Below are positions 1-44,987 of a stretch of 44,987 bases of DNA, piece after piece. The number at the start of each line of letters is the position of its first letter. The stretch's first letter is position 1. The stretch covers positions 1-44,987 of IMG/VR virus record IMGVR_UViG_3300025073_000081; one strand, 5' to 3'. Origin of the DNA: a virus. A program made the position numbers and the translations under genes. Under the pieces are notes generated by a model. That model saw only the letters and a list, made by a program, of their open reading frames with translations. It was not told where the DNA came from and did no database searches.

Positions 1-126
1 ACTTCGCAGTAATGGTACTGGAGGCAATTATGAGCCTCCGAGGAAACGACCAGCCGCATTATAGCCAGCCTGACGAATAGCAGGTTCAAGACTACGGACA
101 GCTTTTTTAGTAGTTCCTAGGCTTTG
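1..126. repeat. Terminal direct repeat, left copy
   Basis: This stretch is identical, base for base, to 44856-44981. It shows that the window is a complete circular, circularly permuted or terminally redundant genome of about 44,855 bp. A length of about 126 bp is what a k-mer assembler leaves when it closes a circle, so it need not be a physical terminal repeat. The repeat carries the end of the plus-strand membrane gene and the end of the minus-strand ART-domain gene. Confidence 0.95.
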
Positions 127-2232
127 TTTTACCTGCTCTTTTATAATTCTTAGTGCTTCAGCACCAGATACCTTACCGTCAGTAGATCGTATGTGGAACT
201 TATCTGGATTAAGTATTTCTAGTTCGTTACCAAAGTCCACCGCATCGTAACCCATTGACTTTAACTTGGCCCGAGCAGCTATAGATTCTTTGCTAGACAT
301 GCTTTTACCAGCAATTTCATACCACACCTTACCAGTGCTCGGTAATATCTTAGCATCCTCCTTGGGTTTTATCTTTATGAAACTATTGCCATACCAACTA
401 GCGTCCTCCTTACTTCTTGCAGCATAAAAAGCATCTGGGGCTTCTGCTGTTGCTGCTGCACGAGAACTCTTAGAAGGATCAAATCCAGTTCTAGCAATAG
501 ACTGAGCATTTTCCTTTGAAGTTCCATGAAAAAACATCTCGCCAGCTTTTGGGCCAATAGCTTCAGGTAAAGATCGGTTAGAGCCAATTATCTTTCGAGC
601 AAGTCTTTCTGTATCGGGCAGCGTTAGCTTAGTAGCAGCATCTCCAGCTACTCGGAGAGTTCTTCCAACAATACCCCCCCCTCCCATAACTCCTGTTTCA
701 ATAGCCTGTTGGAGTAGGGTCTTTTGAGCCTTATCACCAAACTGCTCAACTGCAAGACGAGCAAGTACAGCGTCTTGTACCAGGTCTTTTCCAGTATATT
801 TCTTAATTACGTCTAATACGTCCAAGGCTTCTCGACTCTTATCACCTGAAAAGACACGTCGTAGAAGTAGCTCACCTCTTCCAAGGTCTTTACCTGCGGT
901 ACTAGCAACAAACTTCTCTGCATCTTTAAGAGCAGAAAATATATCATTTGCCTCCGCTAGACTTGGAGACGCCTCACGCATTTTTTCATTGATAGAATGC
1001 CTTGTGGATTTAAGGACACCTTCTAATGGGTCACGAACAACACCAAACTGGTCAGCCTTTGAGTAGTCAACCAATTCATCTAAGTTAGAGAGTACATCAG
1101 AAGCTCTGCGTACAGTTCCTCCTTTCTGAAGCTTAATGAGGTCTTTATACGCATTAACAATACGTTTCTTATCTCCTGCGTCTACTGCTCTTTGCGTACC
1201 AGGAATAGTGCGAGCACCAACGCCACCTTTTCTTATAGAGAGCTGTACACCAAAACGACTAGCAATATCATCTTCGAAAGAGTGAATAACATCATTGAGA
1301 TCAGGCATTTCTACCTTTGCAGCAGCCTTTTTAGCTTCACCCACAGCCGTACCAGCAGTTCTGATCTGCTTTTTAAGTTCAGTACCAGCAGACTCAAGTT
1401 CTTGAGCAGCAATACCGAGCGGAGAGTTCTGGCGAATGTCTAGGTTACGAGCCTTAGCCGACTCTACATACTTATTAAACTTCGTAGGGTCTGGCAATTC
1501 TTCCAAGATGGTACGAGTTTGAGGATTGATACCTACCAACTCTTCACGATATTTCTGAAAACCTTGTAGACCTTTTGCTCCAGCCATAAACAATCCAGCA
1601 GTACCAGCTCCAAGAGCACCGCCGAGTACAGCAGAAGTAGCGATACCTCCAAGGTCTTGTCCTTCGTTAGCACCACCAGCAGCTCCAAACGCAGCTCCAA
1701 CACCAGCAGCCTTACCTAGTTTTGCAGCAGTGCTTCCAGCAGCTAGAGCTTTTCCAGCAAAAGGAAGAGCCACGTTCAAGCCAACATTAGCAATGGAGCC
1801 GACAAGTTCACGATTAGACACACCTCCTCTAGACATCTGTGTTGCTGTCTCTGGTGTGATTTCCCCGAGTTCAGTAGCTTGTCGTACATTCTTTTGGTAT
1901 TCAGGGTCAAAGGACGCAAGTTTAGAGCCTATAAAGCGACCAGCCTTTTCAATACCGAGAAAGCGAGCTGCACCTCCCACAAGTCCAGGGGTTTCGTAGT
2001 CACTTTCGTTATATGAAGTACCTGTTTTTACAGGGAGTTCAAGAATATCACTCACTGCCTTTGCCGAGGCTCCAGATACCTTAGCGTCTTTAAGAATCTT
2101 CTTAGCTTCTGGAGGAAGAGTAGGTAGGTTCATCAAAGAATCAACAATATAATCGTCTTTTTTACCGACACTTCTAAGAGCAGTTGCTCGTGCCTGAGCT
2201 GCCCTGAATGCATTTACTGTGTTTTCGTCCAT
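28..2232 (-). CDS. Large virion or ejection protein with C-terminal ADP-ribosyltransferase-like domain
   Basis: The protein has 734 aa from ATG at 2232; an in-frame start 30 codons upstream lies inside the previous gene and is less likely. Residues about 144-220 form a long Gly/Ala-rich hydrophobic stretch of the kind seen in phage ejection (internal virion) proteins. Residues about 290-540 are helical and charged. Residues about 566-685 resemble an ADP-ribosyltransferase fold: FHGTS (H569), FYAARSKEDASWYG (Y603), then GYDAV and NELEILNP (E670/E672), giving an H-Y-E order. It is the last gene of the late operon, 4 bp after the previous stop. By analogy with T4 Alt, it may be injected with DNA to modify host proteins. 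The ART call is by motif only. The gene end overlaps the convergent plus-strand gene by 53 bp across the circle junction. Confidence 0.6.
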   Translation of the reverse strand: MDENTVNAFRAAQARATALRSVGKKDDYIVDSLMNLPTLPPEAKKILKDAKVSGASAKAVSDILELPVKTGTSYNESDYETPGLVGGAARFLGIEKAGRFIGSKLASFDPEYQKNVRQATELGEITPETATQMSRGGVSNRELVGSIANVGLNVALPFAGKALAAGSTAAKLGKAAGVGAAFGAAGGANEGQDLGGIATSAVLGGALGAGTAGLFMAGAKGLQGFQKYREELVGINPQTRTILEELPDPTKFNKYVESAKARNLDIRQNSPLGIAAQELESAGTELKKQIRTAGTAVGEAKKAAAKVEMPDLNDVIHSFEDDIASRFGVQLSIRKGGVGARTIPGTQRAVDAGDKKRIVNAYKDLIKLQKGGTVRRASDVLSNLDELVDYSKADQFGVVRDPLEGVLKSTRHSINEKMREASPSLAEANDIFSALKDAEKFVASTAGKDLGRGELLLRRVFSGDKSREALDVLDVIKKYTGKDLVQDAVLARLAVEQFGDKAQKTLLQQAIETGVMGGGGIVGRTLRVAGDAATKLTLPDTERLARKIIGSNRSLPEAIGPKAGEMFFHGTSKENAQSIARTGFDPSKSSRAAATAEAPDAFYAARSKEDASWYGNSFIKIKPKEDAKILPSTGKVWYEIAGKSMSSKESIAARAKLKSMGYDAVDFGNELEILNPDKFHIRSTDGKVSGAEALRIIKEQVKQSLGTTKKAVRSLEPAIRQAGYNAAGRFLGGS

Positions 2233-25995: not shown

Positions 25996-26157
25996 TTATA
26001 TTGGTGTTCTTTTAGTTCTAACCTTTCTCTTGCTTGGCTTCCATCTAGCATGTCCATCAGGTGAAGGAACATCAGTGTGGTACATCCAAGATTTCTTATT
26101 GCCTCTCTTTTTTGCCAATTTCTTCAAAAGCTTCCGTTTTCGTAGCCAGTTTGCCAT
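25996..26157 (-). CDS. Small basic protein
   Basis: A 53-aa, very basic protein (MANWLRKRKLLKKLAKKRGN...). It overlaps the end of the metallopeptidase gene by 62 bp in another frame, more than is usual here, but its stop is placed 4 bp before the next ATG, which supports it. Nucleic-acid binding is possible from charge alone. Confidence 0.4.
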   Translation of the reverse strand: MANWLRKRKLLKKLAKKRGNKKSWMYHTDVPSPDGHARWKPSKRKVRTKRTPI

Positions 26158-26536
26158 ACATTTCACTTGATAGAATCGTGGCGATAGCCAGTCTATATTC
26201 AAACTTATCCTTGTAAGTTACCTGTTGTGTGTTGCAATACCATTCGTATTGTGCCCTATACGCTTCTAGCTCTTGGGAGTAGCGAAACTTTTTATCGAAG
26301 TAGTATCGTACCCACCAAAGTATAGCTTTTCTATAGGAGAATCCATGTTGTCTCAAGTGGATGAGTTCATGTACCTGCATATCCATAGGAAGTTCCTTTC
26401 CCCGGGGAATATAAATACGCCTTCCAAATGCTAGATACATATTGTTTAAGTCTGCCTTGGGGAAGAGTAGGAGCCAGAGTTTCCACAAAGGAGATAGTCT
26501 CATGTGCACTGTGTACGGATGTTTTGGTTGTTTCAT
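26096..26536 (-). CDS. Putative small zinc metallopeptidase (HELIH)
   Basis: A 146-aa protein with a zinc-binding HELIH motif (residues 56-60) followed by RQHG and a downstream ELEAYRAQYEWYC helix that could supply the third ligand, as in small gluzincin-type proteins. No signal peptide. It overlaps the glycosyltransferase gene by ATGA (26533-26536), so it belongs to the DNA-modification operon. The target is unknown. Confidence 0.55.
   Translation of the reverse strand: MKQPKHPYTVHMRLSPLWKLWLLLFPKADLNNMYLAFGRRIYIPRGKELPMDMQVHELIHLRQHGFSYRKAILWWVRYYFDKKFRYSQELEAYRAQYEWYCNTQQVTYKDKFEYRLAIATILSSEMYGKLATKTEAFEEIGKKERQ
26398..26409. repeat. Dispersed palindrome, perfect form TTCCCCGGGGAA
   Basis: Inside the HELIH protein gene, in a third codon frame (I-P-R-G-K). 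Fully symmetrical variant. Confidence 0.6.
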
Positions 26537-27366
26537 GTATTGTTCTTAATCCTCATAAAAGCACGCCATTTCTCTACTTGTTCTAGAGAATTGAATCTTA
26601 TTATCAGTTCTCCCTTTGGATCAGTACCCTTTTTCTGGTTATACCTGAACAGACCAGGGTACTTTTCCATGAGCACTACAGAGTCTCGTATCTTGGCAGG
26701 GAGTCTCTCGGCATAAGTACCTATCCCTCCCTTCTCATAATGCCCAGCAATGGGGAAAACATAGTTGTTGATAAGCACTTTACCGTAGCGTAGAAGAGTT
26801 TCTGCTGTATAGGCATAGTCCTCCATACTTTGGGCCTTTAATTCGAAAGGAATACCCAGGTTCTTTCGAACACATGCCTTTGAGATTACATACCCTACAT
26901 AGCGGTACTTTTTACCTCGGAAGAAGAAGTTAGGAGTTGTTCCAAAGCCTATGTTGTATGCCCTGTTCTTTTCTCCTAGCTCTGCAAGTTCCTGACATAC
27001 CTCTAAGAACCTCTCAGTTGAGCCAGGTTCATCGAAAACTGCCTTTAATGAGGAATCCTCTTGTACTGGTAATTCCTCTTCGTCATAGTGGCTTTTTGAG
27101 ACAATCTGGAAGCCTCTGATATTGTCGTCCAAGGATATGTACCACTCTCCGTAGGGTACTAAGTTGTCTTGTATCCACTGTCTTTGGTTAGCCACTCCCA
27201 ATGGAGCATTAGATACAACGATTTTCTCCGGGGAAACTGTAGGATTTTTCAGATACTCTTCCCTTTCCTTCTCTGAATGAAGAACAATAGTGTAGTCATA
27301 CCCCTCAAATAGCTTGTGGGTAGATATAGTATCCGCACGACCTTTAGAAAGTATGATTATCTTCAT
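26533..27366 (-). CDS. Glycosyltransferase, TET/JBP-associated (base-J-GT-like) type
   Basis: A 277-aa GT-A-like enzyme: nucleotide-binding strand KIIILSKGRADTIST at the start, VSNAPLGVANQRQWI (about 51-65), and a DxD-like metal site SLDDNIRGF (D80/D81), followed by SMEDYAYTAETL, where E/D could act in catalysis. This matches the pattern I recall for the TET/JBP-associated glycosyltransferases described by Iyer and colleagues (2013), relatives of the base-J glucosyltransferase. It overlaps the dioxygenase gene by 4 bp (27363-27366). The likely role is to add a sugar to an oxidised base in phage DNA. The sugar and base are unknown. Confidence 0.65.
   Translation of the reverse strand: MKIIILSKGRADTISTHKLFEGYDYTIVLHSEKEREEYLKNPTVSPEKIVVSNAPLGVANQRQWIQDNLVPYGEWYISLDDNIRGFQIVSKSHYDEEELPVQEDSSLKAVFDEPGSTERFLEVCQELAELGEKNRAYNIGFGTTPNFFFRGKKYRYVGYVISKACVRKNLGIPFELKAQSMEDYAYTAETLLRYGKVLINNYVFPIAGHYEKGGIGTYAERLPAKIRDSVVLMEKYPGLFRYNQKKGTDPKGELIIRFNSLEQVEKWRAFMRIKNNT
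27224..27235. repeat. Dispersed palindrome TTCTCCGGGGAA, copy 3
   Basis: Inside the glycosyltransferase gene, codons V-S-P-E-K. Confidence 0.7.
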
Positions 27367-28244
27367 TGTTTCCCTATTCTAGCTCGTAATGACGCCTCTT
27401 TAGTTTCCTTTAGTTTGGCATCTTCTTCGTTCAAGGGGGTGTCTAACCTAGTACGCTCTCTTGTTGTCTTTGTTTGGCGTATTCTTGCTATTTCCTCAGT
27501 GATTTCAAGGCACTGCCACATACGCTTCAAGGTGTAGTACACCACTGAATAACGGTGTCCAAGAGGAGAAGTGTATTTAATAGGCGTAACTCCATGAAGG
27601 ATACTCTGCCCATCAAATAACAAGATACTGTTGTTCGGGAGTTTGAAGGCAATATCGTACTCGGGACACGAAAGGTATCCACCCTCAACACCTTGTTTGA
27701 ATACCACCATCATAGAGAACACATCAGTAAAGTTCCCTGTATCGAAGTGGTACTTCAATGGATTGTTCTTGTTGATAATACCTGAAGTAAACAAAGAGCT
27801 TTTTTCGATACGCCACTCGTTCTTAACCTTTTCTTCCGAAAGAGACTTATGGTTTTCGTACCCCTTTGGGTTGTACTTCTTGTAATAGTCCTCAAGTTTT
27901 AATGCGAAAGAGGCGATGAGATTGTGCTCTCTAGGTGATTCTCCTGCCAAAGACGTAGAAGAACAGTAGTCTTGACGCATTTCATTCCTGGGCCTGAAAC
28001 CAAAGATACGAGACGTTGAAACCAGACCACGAGAACGCTTCCCCGTAGTGTACTTAATCTTTTTAAGAGCACTGGTAATATCTTCAGTACTGAAATCGAG
28101 AATATCGAAGATAATCTTGACCTCGCCATCTACCATCACAACAGTTGGCTCTTCAATCAACACAGAATAGTCGTCCTCCTTAGCAGAACGCTTGATGTAT
28201 TCTTTGAGGTTTAACTCCTTCTTAGTCAGCTCTAGAACCTTCAT
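27363..28244 (-). CDS. TET/JBP-like 2-oxoglutarate/Fe(II) DNA dioxygenase
   Basis: A 293-aa protein with the full double-stranded beta-helix signature. Iron ligands H166xD168 lie in KYHFDTGNF and H217 in ILHGVTPI; R231 for 2-oxoglutarate lies in HRYSVVYYT. GGYLSCPEYDIAFKLP and NSILLFDGQ lie between them, with GFRPRNE..QDYC upstream. This order (HxD, GG.L..PEY, LLFD...LHG, R.S...YT) is characteristic of TET/JBP enzymes, which oxidise 5-methylpyrimidines in DNA. No DNA methyltransferase is seen in the genome, so the substrate may be thymine, or 5-methylcytosine made by the host. The charged C-terminal 40 residues are extra. It is coupled to the glycosyltransferase and to the ParB-like gene. Confidence 0.75.
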   Translation of the reverse strand: MKVLELTKKELNLKEYIKRSAKEDDYSVLIEEPTVVMVDGEVKIIFDILDFSTEDITSALKKIKYTTGKRSRGLVSTSRIFGFRPRNEMRQDYCSSTSLAGESPREHNLIASFALKLEDYYKKYNPKGYENHKSLSEEKVKNEWRIEKSSLFTSGIINKNNPLKYHFDTGNFTDVFSMMVVFKQGVEGGYLSCPEYDIAFKLPNNSILLFDGQSILHGVTPIKYTSPLGHRYSVVYYTLKRMWQCLEITEEIARIRQTKTTRERTRLDTPLNEEDAKLKETKEASLRARIGKQ

Positions 28245-28833
28245 AGCGTTTTAATAGTTCAAGCACTGCCTCCGTATGAGACGTAGTACCAGTCTCTTCC
28301 ATTACCCTGTCTATTCGAGGGACAACATCCTCAAACTCTTCAGAAGAGAAGTAAAGGACAATCTGCTTCACGTTGCCGCCAAGATACGTCTCCATCGAAG
28401 AGCCTAGAGTATCTGTATCCTGTCCATCTTGTTCACGAGAAGTAGCAAAACCAAGCTCGAAGTCTTTGAAACCAGACTCATAGAGCGATTCAATACCGAA
28501 ACCGTTGGCTAGTGCATCGAAATCAAACTCTCCACGATGGCGGTTACTCTCCAATGCAATGACCTCTTTTTCCTCTTCCGTAAGTTCACGGTTGGGGTAC
28601 AAGACAAAGACTTCTTCGACACCCAATTCCTTAAGGGCACGCTTTCTCTGGTGTCCTGAGAGGATAGTCCCATCAGTATCAACCTTTAGCACGTCATGGA
28701 AACCTCGTTTAACTATCCCAGCCTTTAGCTTTTCAAACTCTTCAGAAGAAATCTTCCTAGGGTTCTTAGGCCATTCTTTAAGGTCAGCGACCTTCCTTTT
28801 TTCAGAGGTCCAAACGATATTAAGCATCTCCAT
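28222..28833 (-). CDS. ParB-like nuclease-domain protein
   Basis: A 203-aa protein with a ParB N-terminal domain (about residues 15-125): DLKEWPKNPRKISSEEFEKL, then TILSGHQRKRALKELG (the GHQR motif at 60-63). The C-terminal 75 residues are a separate acidic domain with a helix ending RYEGSRAD. In phages such ParB-like domains are often encoded beside or fused to DNA-modifying enzymes, and they have been noted beside TET/JBP genes. It overlaps the dioxygenase gene by 23 bp and the HU-like gene by 14 bp. It may bind DNA or a nucleotide to guide modification. Partition is unlikely because no ParA is present. Confidence 0.75.
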   Translation of the reverse strand: MEMLNIVWTSEKRKVADLKEWPKNPRKISSEEFEKLKAGIVKRGFHDVLKVDTDGTILSGHQRKRALKELGVEEVFVLYPNRELTEEEKEVIALESNRHRGEFDFDALANGFGIESLYESGFKDFELGFATSREQDGQDTDTLGSSMETYLGGNVKQIVLYFSSEEFEDVVPRIDRVMEETGTTSHTEAVLELLKRYEGSRAD

Positions 28834-29074
28834 ATTCTTGTGCTAGGTCTTTTAGTTTTTGATTAGGTCGGAAGGATACTTTATTGTGTTCTGGAATAAT
28901 AAACCGCTCTCCAGTACCCACGTTGTACCCTTCTCTCGCTGGGATTCTCTTTATCTCGAAGATACCAAGTCCCACAATCTTAACCTTCCCAGCCTTTAAA
29001 AGAAGGGAGGTGAGGTGCGAGACAAAGCTATCGTCTTTAAACTTTAGGATGACTTTCTGTTTTACGTTACTCAT
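28820..29074 (-). CDS. HU/IHF-like DNA-bending protein
   Basis: An 84-aa protein. The C-terminal two-thirds follow the HU pattern: VKIVGLGIFEIKRIPAREGYN, GERFIIPEHNKVSFRPNQKLKDLA. The N-terminal helical body is about ten residues shorter than in typical HU, and the usual NP.TG arm is NVGTG here. It probably bends phage DNA for packaging, replication or modification. It sits between the DUF1064 and ParB-like genes with overlapping ends. Confidence 0.75.
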   Translation of the reverse strand: MSNVKQKVILKFKDDSFVSHLTSLLLKAGKVKIVGLGIFEIKRIPAREGYNVGTGERFIIPEHNKVSFRPNQKLKDLAQEYGDA

Positions 29075-29568
29075 AGTTCTTTGATTATTATTCCGTGGAA
29101 AGCCTTTACCAGTTTACTTTTGAGCTTATACACATCAGTTCTAACCCCCTTAGTATCCTCGTACTCCACTCGTCCATCAGGGTATGTAACCCGAAAGTCG
29201 GCGTAGTACGAGCAGATTTTTACTCCGTTGTGTTCAATCGGAATCTTAAATTGTGGAATCCAAGAATGAATTGCACCTACCCGTTGCAGAACATCTAGTT
29301 CAGATGCTCGGGTAGCTTCTTTTTTAGAAGCGTACCAACGACCTCCGTAGAGAGTACGTTGATTTCTAAACTTACTCTGCCGATTGGCTTGCTGTTGGGG
29401 TAGAAGGTTCAACTTCCTCGCCTCCTCCAAGCTCATCCGTTGGGGTAACGACTTCCTCGTCCTCTCCTTCGAGTGCTTCTGCAAGTTCTTCTTCAGGAGT
29501 AACGGGTACTGTTTCGTTTTCGTCCATAATTTTTTTGATTTAGGTTTTGACAATTTGCCACTTGGCAT
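29071..29568 (-). CDS. DUF1064-type PD-(D/E)XK nuclease
   Basis: A 165-aa protein. I chose ATG 29568 because the promoter -10 (29575-29580) lies just upstream; an in-frame ATG at 29586 would be inside the promoter. The C-terminal 100 residues match the phage family DUF1064: YGGRWYASKKEATRASELDVLQ, IPQFKIPI, CSYYADFRVTYPDGRVEYEDTKGV, VYKLKSKLV. The D..., E-x-K-like segment (ADFRV...VEYEDTKG) is the probable nuclease core, suggesting junction or branched-DNA cleavage. The basic N-terminus (to about 65) is extra. First gene of the modification operon, probably leaderless. Confidence 0.7.
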   Translation of the reverse strand: MPSGKLSKPKSKKLWTKTKQYPLLLKKNLQKHSKERTRKSLPQRMSLEEARKLNLLPQQQANRQSKFRNQRTLYGGRWYASKKEATRASELDVLQRVGAIHSWIPQFKIPIEHNGVKICSYYADFRVTYPDGRVEYEDTKGVRTDVYKLKSKLVKAFHGIIIKEL

Positions 29569-29574
29569 GTCTTG

Positions 29575-29620
29575 AGTATACCACAAAACATACTATACAA
29601 GGGCTTTATACACAGTTAGC
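29575..29620 (-). promoter_or_regulatory. Promoter of the DNA-modification operon
   Basis: Minus strand: CCCTTGTATAGTATG resembling the shared spacer block, then extended -10 TGGTATACT with TATACT at 29575-29580. A perfect DnaA-box sequence TTATACACA is on the plus strand at 29606-29614. The first ATG (29568) is six bases beyond the -10, so the mRNA is probably leaderless. No clear -35. Confidence 0.6.
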
Positions 29621-31705: not shown

Positions 31706-32617
31706 TTAGCCTCTACGAAGATTAAGCCGTATCAATTTAATAATGTGTGGGTAAAGCTGTTTAATGTCGTTAATCACACATGTCCTTCTCTGTGGGTAAT
31801 ATTTCTGTACAGAAGAATCCATAATTCCAATTGAGTACAGTTCAATACCCGAGGCAATCGTCATATCCACCTCTTGCTTCAAGTTAAAGTCATGTTGTGA
31901 ATACCCAGGATTTATAGGACTTTCCCACCCAGAAGGAACGGGAGCAGGTTGTCCATCGGACAAGAAAATCATAATCTTCTTTCCTGTTTGTTTTAGCAGT
32001 CTTTCCCTGGAGAAACGAAGTGCCTCAGCATCGGAGTTCCAGTTTGGACTACTACCAATCTCAATATCCACTCCTGCGGTTGCCATTGCAGTGACAGTCT
32101 CATAATATTCACTGTAGCTAATACTTTTCATAAAAGGATAAAGCATAGAACCACCTTTTTTCTTAGATGGAATCGTTTTACCCTTATTCCAAAGCAGGTA
32201 AATATCGTATTTCCGATTCATAGGCGAAGAACCGCATCCAAGTTCAGCTAGGATTTTATCTTCAATTTGCTTGTCCTCCTTGGCAGAAAAGTTTTTAAGC
32301 TCATCAACATGCCCAGCAAAGGCTATTACATTATGTGGAATACCTATCTTAGACAGATGGTGAGATATTCTCTGTACAGACTGAGCAGCCATTTTTATCT
32401 TTTCTTCAAGCATAGAGCCTGAACAGTCCACAACTAAAGAGATTGCATAGTGTTTATTCTGTCTTGCCTCTCTCCTTTTGAAGAGTTTCGAAGAAATATC
32501 TACCTTGTATAGACTACGAGTATCTAACTTGCCAGTACGTTTGTTTTTAACAAAACGGTCGTACTTATTATCAAGCATTATCGACTGTAGAGTTCTTTGG
32601 AAGGTTACGTCATTCAT
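31706..32617 (-). CDS. VWA-domain protein (CobT-like MIDAS)
   Basis: A 303-aa protein with a von Willebrand factor A domain (about residues 55-300). The MIDAS motif DxSxS is at D64-S66-S68 (VVDCSGSM), followed by a threonine-containing helix (ETVTAMATAG) and FLSDGQP (D221). The N-terminus is short and basic. VWA proteins of this kind act as partners of MoxR/CobS AAA+ ATPases, binding the target through a metal site. The ATPase gene is 2 bp upstream, so they almost certainly form one machine. Confidence 0.75.
   Translation of the reverse strand: MNDVTFQRTLQSIMLDNKYDRFVKNKRTGKLDTRSLYKVDISSKLFKRREARQNKHYAISLVVDCSGSMLEEKIKMAAQSVQRISHHLSKIGIPHNVIAFAGHVDELKNFSAKEDKQIEDKILAELGCGSSPMNRKYDIYLLWNKGKTIPSKKKGGSMLYPFMKSISYSEYYETVTAMATAGVDIEIGSSPNWNSDAEALRFSRERLLKQTGKKIMIFLSDGQPAPVPSGWESPINPGYSQHDFNLKQEVDMTIASGIELYSIGIMDSSVQKYYPQRRTCVINDIKQLYPHIIKLIRLNLRRG
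32003..32014. repeat. Dispersed palindrome TTCCCTGGAGAA, copy 4
   Basis: Inside the VWA gene, reverse orientation and different codon frame (F-S-R-E-R). Confidence 0.7.
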
Positions 32618-32619
32618 GG

Positions 32620-33696
32620 CTAATCCTTAGCAAGCTCCTTAATCCGATTGATAAAGTCGTCGTGCACAATACTTCCTGATCTTGAAGAAAGACTTCTAAT
32701 CTCATCTTCCATTTGCGAGATTTTAGCATCGTGGTCTAGCTTAAGGGCATCTATCTTAGCGTCAAAACCAGCAACAAGATCAAGTAATTCCTGAATAGTT
32801 TTAACAGGAAGGCTGAGAATACTACCGATTATTTTTTCAAAGTCGCTTTTGACCACTTCAAACTCTTTTGGAGTCATCTTGTTTACAATAGAACCAACGG
32901 CTGCATCAGTTAGAGAAACCCCACAAAGAATCAAGTGAGCTGTTTGTACTAGGTCACGAGTAGAACAGAAATAGAAAATATCGTCCTTCTTTTTGTATTC
33001 TCGTAGCTTTGTAGCTAACAATACCAGCTTAGTAGCAGTCTCAAAATCAGTGCCCTTGTCTTGTAGAAGACGTATCTCATCTGTGTTCGATAGGACATCA
33101 ATGTAAAGGACAGCAGTAAAACGAGACATAAGGGCCTTGTTCATATCCTTGGTTCCTGCGTATTCCTCTGGAGGGTTCATGGTACCGAAGAAACGGAAAC
33201 CTTCTGCTGGATACACAATCTCGTTGTCCTTCTCAGGCAACACAATCTTTCTATCATCGTCGAGAAGAGAGTGAAGGGTAAACAAAATCTCTGGTAGAGC
33301 TGCGTTGATTTCGTCCATAACAACCCAGTGACCAGAACGGAGAGCAGCAGTCAAGATACCGTCTTGCCACACAGTAGTTCCCTTGTTTACAAGCCACTTT
33401 CCAAGGATTTCTTCCACACCCATAGAACCGTTAACAGAAATACGGATGAGGGTCTTTTCCTTTTCCTTAGCCATCTCTCGAATGAGAGTTGTCTTTCCAG
33501 TACCCGTCTCTCCAATCAAAAGAACAGGCTCATCACTTTCAACACAAGCATTCAAAAGCCTTATATTTGTATCAGAGACAAAGTAGGGTTTAGATACCTC
33601 TTCTTCAGATACTACTCCCCAAGCTTCTTCAAGTGTTACCTCTCCTACAGCTTCTCCTACAATTTCTTCTTCATTTGTTTTTACCTTCTTCGCCAT
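32620..33696 (-). CDS. MoxR/CobS-family AAA+ ATPase
   Basis: A 358-aa protein with Walker A IGETGTGKTT (residues 61-70), Walker B VVMDE (125-129), the helix insert NAALPEILFTLHSLLDDDRKI and sensor region FGTMNPPEEYAGTKDMNKALMSRF. This is the MoxR/CobS group, chaperone-like ATPases that remodel or insert cofactors into a partner with a VWA protein. The C-terminal coiled coil (about 315-358) is extra. First gene of an operon with the VWA and acidic proteins; no metal-chelatase large subunit is present, so a chelatase role is unlikely. Confidence 0.8.
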   Translation of the reverse strand: MAKKVKTNEEEIVGEAVGEVTLEEAWGVVSEEEVSKPYFVSDTNIRLLNACVESDEPVLLIGETGTGKTTLIREMAKEKEKTLIRISVNGSMGVEEILGKWLVNKGTTVWQDGILTAALRSGHWVVMDEINAALPEILFTLHSLLDDDRKIVLPEKDNEIVYPAEGFRFFGTMNPPEEYAGTKDMNKALMSRFTAVLYIDVLSNTDEIRLLQDKGTDFETATKLVLLATKLREYKKKDDIFYFCSTRDLVQTAHLILCGVSLTDAAVGSIVNKMTPKEFEVVKSDFEKIIGSILSLPVKTIQELLDLVAGFDAKIDALKLDHDAKISQMEDEIRSLSSRSGSIVHDDFINRIKELAKD

Positions 33697-44653: not shown

Positions 44654-44935
44654 ATGAGTCTAACATCAGAAGATATAAGGACTTGGCCCACAAGGGATGA
44701 TTTAACAGTCACAAGTTTGAAGCTCTTAGCACTAATTCTGTTCTTCTTCATTCCAGTAGGTATCCTAGCTATCTTAGCTATTGTGATATTCATTGCTGCG
44801 TTTACTGAGCTGTTTATGGGTTTCGTCTATTTTCTCTTTATTATCGGAGTTTTATACTTCGCAGTAATGGTACTGGAGGCAATTATGAGCCTCCGAGGAA
44901 ACGACCAGCCGCATTATAGCCAGCCTGACGAATAG
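44654..44935 (+). CDS. Small membrane protein, only plus-strand gene
   Basis: A 93-aa protein with two closely spaced long hydrophobic segments (about residues 22-50 and 54-74) and a polar tail. It has a textbook ribosome-binding site (AGGAGG, ten bases before ATG 44654), unlike almost all other genes here. The end crosses into the terminal repeat and overlaps the convergent ART-domain gene by 53 bp. Different orientation and translation signals suggest separate control or origin. It might be a superinfection-exclusion or lysis-control protein; that is speculative. Confidence 0.6.
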   Translation: MSLTSEDIRTWPTRDDLTVTSLKLLALILFFFIPVGILAILAIVIFIAAFTELFMGFVYFLFIIGVLYFAVMVLEAIMSLRGNDQPHYSQPDE

Positions 44936-44981
44936 CAGGTTCAAGACTACGGACAGCTTTTTTAGTAGTTCCTAGGCTTTG
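44856..44981. repeat. Terminal direct repeat, right copy
   Basis: Exact copy of bases 1-126. The last six bases of the window (44982-44987) do not continue the repeat. Together with the preceding bases they form tgaacctg, the reverse complement of caggttca at 44936-44943, which looks like a fold-back artefact at the contig end. Confidence 0.95.
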
Positions 44982-44987
44982 AACCTG

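Follow-up and report, generated by a model that had tools for sequence, protein, structure and literature searches.

How could a phage hypermodify its DNA with an oxygenase of the TET/JBP family when its genome shows no enzyme that would prime a base for it? The question is raised by a viral genome from IMG/VR (record IMGVR_UViG_3300025073_000081, positions 1 to 44,987), the whole stretch of 44,987 nucleotides being called the window hereafter. Three overlapping genes of the window encode a ParB-like protein, a TET/JBP Fe(II)/2-oxoglutarate (2OG) dioxygenase and a TET-associated glycosyltransferase (TAGT; Table 1). TET/JBP enzymes have been suggested to originate in the conflict between phages and bacteria. 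An earlier note on this DNA offered two routes for the module, direct oxidation of thymine in DNA or use of 5-methylcytosine (5mC) of the host, and the comparative evidence favours the first. Judged from sequence comparisons, thymine and not cytosine is most likely the target base, and it is quite probable that the ParB-like protein targets DNA, the oxygenase converts thymine to 5-hydroxymethyluracil (5hmU) and the TAGT adds a sugar.

On this view, the module would hypermodify thymine after replication. The enzymes are presumably recruited to the DNA by the ParB-like protein, after which the oxygenase would oxidise the 5-methyl group of thymine in the phage DNA and the TAGT would move a sugar from a host nucleotide-sugar onto the resulting hydroxymethyl group, presumably in this order, giving a base-J-type glycosyl-5-hydroxymethyluracil. 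As thymine would be oxidised in the DNA itself, neither a methyltransferase nor a hydroxymethylase would be needed.

The Core Proteins of the Module

All three open reading frames (ORFs) of the core were confirmed at the positions given earlier. On the minus strand they are read in the order ParB, TET/JBP, glycosyltransferase, with overlaps of 23 nucleotides between the first two (28222-28244) and of 4 nucleotides between the last two (27363-27366).

The oxygenase reaches 54.4 bits against Tet_JBP (PF12851), for which the curated Pfam cut-off is 34.9. In a scan of the whole of Pfam, Tet_JBP was the sole match of the protein, and the J-binding domain of JBP1 was not found. The iron ligands H166, D168 and H217 and the 2OG-binding R231, which had been read from the sequence alone, proved invariant in 14 diverse phage homologues and also in 46 closer ones. 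An AlphaFold model built from 46 sequences has a mean predicted local distance difference test score (pLDDT) of 93.3. In a Foldseek comparison of this model with the PDB, the best 26 matches are all TET-family proteins (CMD1, NgTET1, CcTet, TET2; E 3e-11 to 2e-9), whereas other 2OG oxygenases and AlkB/FTO appear only at 2.5e-7 or weaker. The closest viral structure models are phage JBP1/TET proteins. As modelled, the fold is of the TET type and not that of another 2OG oxygenase; the earlier note had named an unrelated dioxygenase as the finding that would overturn its proposal, and the PDB matches favour TET-family DNA dioxygenases far over AlkB/FTO. TET/JBP proteins also occur under wrong labels in the GenBank phage records H8, H37 and H116, namely queuine tRNA-ribosyltransferase, DpdA-like and SNF2 repair protein.

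The glycosyltransferase scores 35.9 bits against TAGT (PF20691; cut-off 27.5) and matches phrog_842, beta-glucosyl-HMC-alpha-glucosyltransferase (E 4.1e-10). It has an acidic motif, S78-L-D80-D81, of which D81 is invariant in 20 homologues. A single-sequence structure model was too poor for use (pLDDT 45), and a profile search of the PDB gave no significant match. The protein is assigned on the grounds of the Pfam family, the DNA-glucosyltransferase PHROG and the conserved acidic motif, and it is proposed to transfer a sugar to hydroxymethylated DNA. No cell-wall glycosyltransferase family was present among its matches in Pfam and PHROGs, so that its association with TET/JBP enzymes, claimed earlier, is upheld against that alternative. 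A short-peptide search for close TAGT relatives returned one contig only.

For the ParB-like protein, Pfam gives a weak match (E 0.01) and PHROGs a clear one (Table 1). The protein additionally resembles fusions of ParB with a DNA methyltransferase, in their ParB part (phrog_498, E 2.9e-20), and a PADLOC MTase_II match covers its residues 11-131. Among the 69 related loci with 700 or more bases upstream of the oxygenase, a ParB gene lies at most three genes from the oxygenase in 63, and it immediately precedes the oxygenase in 44. This constant neighbourhood, together with the match to the ParB part of the fusions, suggests that the ParB-like protein is the DNA-targeting partner of the oxygenase. 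In the near relatives L021-L025 the ParB protein has an inserted segment that is missing from the window, and the C-terminal part (..YLGGNVKQIVLYFSSEEFEDV..) is common to both. A 'DNA methylase' of cyanophage MED4-117 (L011 5464-6105) matches ParB_N only.

Genome Completeness and Base-Priming Enzymes

The earlier note took this genome to be complete, and a repeat at its ends supports that. The first bases of the window (1-132) recur at its end (44856-44987) as a direct terminal repeat of at least 120 and fewer than 133 identical bases. This makes the genome terminally redundant, and hence probably complete or circularly permuted.

Searches of the window gave no cytosine C5-methyltransferase (C5-MTase; PF00145), no thymidylate synthase (TS) or dUMP hydroxymethylase (PF00303) and no ThyX (PF02511), and Pfam scans of its predicted genes gave no methyltransferase family, which bears out what had been read from the sequence. 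As positive controls, 10 of 14 genomes gave a PF00145 hit, and so did phage Melnitz. No tRNA was found in the window.

A Constant Core with Exchangeable Tailoring Genes

A search of viral contigs yielded 372 relatives, of which the best 80 were studied; in a search for the host, neither the oxygenase nor the terminase had a relative in the genome collection. The 80 loci differ in their tailoring genes. TAGT is present in 27, and one further locus combines TAGT with an amino-acid:DNA transferase (ADDT) and a kinase; the others have FkbM (10), ADDT with a kinase (5), PIG-L (5), a kinase (3), ADDT (2) or a C5-MTase (1). Pfam searches of 50 records gave TAGT in 21, ADDT in 9 and the P-loop kinase PF18751 in 8. 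The FkbM-type methyltransferase genes stand beside ParB-TET (L026, L030, L065, L071, L087 and others). Among cultured actinophages, the ParB-TET core comes with ADDT in Tonitrus, CloverMinnie, Prince and MO526; those in which it comes with the PF18751 kinase are Tonitrus, Prince, Kharcho, Terij and MO526.

With these relatives the oxygenase of the window belongs to a large phage clade marked by an adjacent ParB gene (the ParB clade), and base-priming enzymes are rare or absent here as well. Of 42 related contigs, 3 have a C5-MTase; of 17 phage records, only that of Melnitz does, a phage placed outside the ParB clade. A TS fold was found in none of 44 contigs, nor was ThyX in the same 44.

On the tree of the oxygenases, the window groups with four TAGT relatives, and L025 is sister to this group (starred branch, 99/93). 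Of the relatives that fall outside the TAGT group and have a tailoring gene assigned, L025 is the nearest, its oxygenase being 57% identical to that of the window; its order is ParB-TET-ADDT, followed at a distance of two genes by a P-loop protein. The minimum number of label changes on the tree is at least 8 for TAGT and at least 7 for ADDT/kinase. Gene content and tree show that the tailoring enzymes (TAGT, ADDT with P-loop kinase, FkbM, PIG-L) have been swapped repeatedly over a constant ParB-TET core.

The PIG-L genes bear on the final product. In Arthrobacter phage Bolt007 (L009 5758-9071) the order is ParB-TET-GT-PIG-L deacetylase, the deacetylase directly following the glycosyltransferase (GT), and L048, L053, L055, L068, L069 and L085 have a PIG-L homologue in the neighbourhood of TET. 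Such GlcNAc-type deacetylase genes suggest an amino-sugar DNA modification in these phages. By analogy, thymine could also be oxidised in the window and the TAGT product altered further by the host or an unrecognised phage enzyme, e.g., into a deacetylated amino sugar. This is judged improbable, as no further recognisable tailoring gene adjoins the TAGT of the window.

Thymine or Cytosine as the Target Base

The choice between the two bases can be approached by way of phages M6, ViI and phiW-14, in which the 5-position of thymidine is modified via 5hmU. All three have a TS-fold enzyme (PF00303) and no Tet_JBP. M6 gp51 is an ADDT (E 1.4e-46), which acts on 5-hydroxymethyldeoxyuridine (5hmdU) in that phage, and lies beside the TS-fold enzyme and the 5hmdU DNA kinases, which belong to PF18748/PF18723. 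PF18751 was considered as the M6/ViI kinase and rejected, since it was not detected in M6, ViI or phiW-14. Where ADDT stands on a ParB-TET core and no TS fold is present, the oxygenase is the only visible source of 5hmU. The annotators of Tonitrus have named its gene set a thymidine hypermodification system (PMC11955845). Given the seven to eight or more changes of tailoring label, the easiest explanation would be that one and the same oxidised base serves as substrate for both TAGT and ADDT. This argument, drawn here across the whole clade, is new: the ParB-TET core would be a platform that oxidises thymine and on which the tailoring enzymes can be exchanged, and the window would have its glycosyl version.

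Several observations weigh against thymine oxidation followed by glycosylation. The tailoring genes that point to thymidine in the relatives, ADDT (PF18724) and the P-loop kinase (PF18751), were both absent from the window, and the equivalence of PF18751 to the M6-type kinases is by context. In 26 of the 80 related loci, roughly a third, no tailoring gene is assigned. The residue three positions after the iron-ligand Asp, Asn171, was considered as a marker of base specificity; it is N throughout the ParB clade and D in Melnitz, Nonlabens, HTVC112P and NgTET1, but it is not decisive for thymine against cytosine because it is N in human TET2 as well. TAGT also occurs beside TETs outside the ParB clade, as in a Nonlabens phage, and is thus uninformative on the base. 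Product, sugar and extent of modification are all predictions. Three relatives (L028, L040 and L044), united in a single small clade by the TET tree, carry a C5-MTase; that of L028 is close to the oxygenase, two genes after TET and a second ParB. In Melnitz, placed by the tree outside the clade of the window, an HhaI-like methyltransferase adjoins TET.

The three C5-MTase carriers among the relatives and the wider distribution of TAGT would fit another scheme, in which 5mC comes from the host or from its restriction-modification system, the oxygenase makes 5-hydroxymethylcytosine and the TAGT glycosylates it. Moreover, all phage TETs that to our knowledge have been characterised take as substrate 5mC that a C5-MTase has made. 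A published summary agrees (PMC12730594). The scheme is nonetheless unlikely for the window. C5-MTase is absent from the window, from 39 of the 42 related contigs and from the actinophages of the ParB clade, and the same core is coupled to ADDT/kinase tailoring of thymidine in relatives, including the near relative L025. Reliance on chance methylation by the host would also be a weak basis for such a widespread operon.

Restriction-Site Avoidance and the Extent of Modification

Restriction palindromes are strongly avoided in the window, the T-containing GATC included, which also counts against blanket protection by the modification. Observed and expected numbers are 0 and 23 for CGCG, 0 and 31 for GCGC, 13 and 46 for CCGG, and 53 and 156 for GATC, so that depletion is greatest for palindromes free of T. 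In six contigs or fragments among the relatives (from the set L109-L128) GATC is absent where 137, 96, 121, 52, 170 and 50 copies are expected. Different related contigs have lost different sites, and several are without any GATC or CATG. As support for thymine modification these statistics were rejected, as lambda has a similar trend, relatives lose GATC or CATG and the counts cannot decide between T and C.

Such strong avoidance speaks against the modification as a blanket shield. The likely purpose of the module is protection against part of the nucleases of the host, and the avoidance in the window and its relatives implies that this protection would be partial, late or aimed at other defences. 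In keeping with this, glycosyl-5-hydroxymethyluracil could be made by direct thymine oxidation and be sparse, placed at sites chosen by ParB for marking or selective protection; we regard this version as possible, if rather doubtful. Far less probable is that the oxygenase and glycosyltransferase do not modify the bulk genome and have as their target host DNA or a small number of sites selected by ParB. ParB as the most constant partner and the counter-selection of sites such as GATC would both agree with it; however, site avoidance is general in phages, with a similar pattern in lambda, and may reflect restriction of DNA that is modified partly or only after replication.

Relation to Known Systems

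Base J occurs in kinetoplastids and some related organisms. The predicted phage pathway resembles the kinetoplastid one (JBP1/JBP2 and a glucosyltransferase) in the oxidation of thymine in DNA, with no need of a priming enzyme, and in the use of a separate glycosyltransferase. It differs in that the phage oxygenase consists of the oxygenase domain alone, its partner is a ParB protein and its glycosyltransferase is of the TAGT family. Because no J-binding domain was found, the module of the window is not placed in the kinetoplastid base J pathway.

A second similar system is that of Rhodococcus phage Tonitrus and related actinophages, which have a ParB-TET/JBP core of the same clade and likewise lack C5-MTase, a TS fold and ThyX. 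Their clusters carry ADDT and a P-loop kinase, for which an amino-acid-type addition is predicted, whereas the window carries TAGT. Cytosine hypermodification by a phage C5-MTase, a TET and a glycosyltransferase is said to have been described by Burke et al. in 2021; it would share with the window a TET-family oxygenase and a glycosyltransferase acting on a 5-methylpyrimidine in DNA, but it needs a phage C5-MTase. The M6, ViI and phiW-14 systems have in common with the prediction for the window the modification of thymidine via 5hmU, and with the relatives of the window the ADDT. In contrast, these phages rely on a TS-fold dUMP hydroxymethylase, which supplies the 5hmdU before replication.

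Phage operons with TET/JBP and a glycosyltransferase are already known as a predicted kind, and some GenBank annotations read 'Tet-like J-binding protein' or 'thymidine hydroxylase'. According to a paper of 2019, glucosylated 5hmdU was then unreported in phages (PMC6449724), and in the passages of open papers that were searched there was no report of phage-made glycosylated 5hmU. If the proposal is true, a ParB-TET core that feeds exchangeable tailoring (sugar, amino acid or other) would be the missing prokaryotic counterpart of base J. It would also account for the many phage TETs that have no methyltransferase, and it would be a source of enzymes for introducing hydroxymethyluracil or glycosyl-uracil into ordinary DNA.

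Neighbouring Genes

The earlier note had placed an HU-like protein, a DUF1064 nuclease and a HELIH protein in the same operon. Pfam bears out the first two; for the third, the motif is present and the ORF has no family match in Pfam or PHROGs. The position of the HU homologue, two genes before TET, is kept in the nearest relatives L021, L022, L024 and L025, and the protein has at most a candidate role in modification. The DUF1064 gene is kept upstream in L022 and L024; its product probably stands outside the modification chemistry. A homologue of the HELIH ORF with the motif HEMVH is found in the nearest IMG/VR relative (L002 12005-12427), two genes after TAGT, and the ORF is unlikely to be a member of the pathway.

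Table 1. Genes of the predicted modification module and adjoining genes in the window.
Feature	Coordinates	Strand	Evidence and proposed role
ParB-like protein, 203 aa	28222..28833	-	First core gene; phrog_620 E 6.7e-21
TET/JBP Fe(II)/2-oxoglutarate dioxygenase, 293 aa	27363..28244	-	Pfam Tet_JBP E 1.1e-14; proposed thymine-in-DNA hydroxylase
TET-associated glycosyltransferase TAGT, 277 aa	26533..27366	-	Pfam TAGT E 9.8e-9; proposed 5-hydroxymethyl glycosylation
HU-like DNA-binding protein	28820..29074	-	Bac_DNA_binding PF00216 E 6e-16; same operon
DUF1064 protein, Holliday-junction-resolvase-like PHROG	29071..29586	-	PF06356 E 3.6e-9, phrog_190 E 4.8e-27
HELIH-motif ORF	26096..26536	-	Just 3' of TAGT; motif read from sequence

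Further along the window, at 31706-33696, a CobS/MoxR-like AAA ATPase (AAA_5, CbbQ_C) is followed by a CobT/VWA-domain protein, a pair that resembles cobaltochelatase or MoxR-VWA systems.

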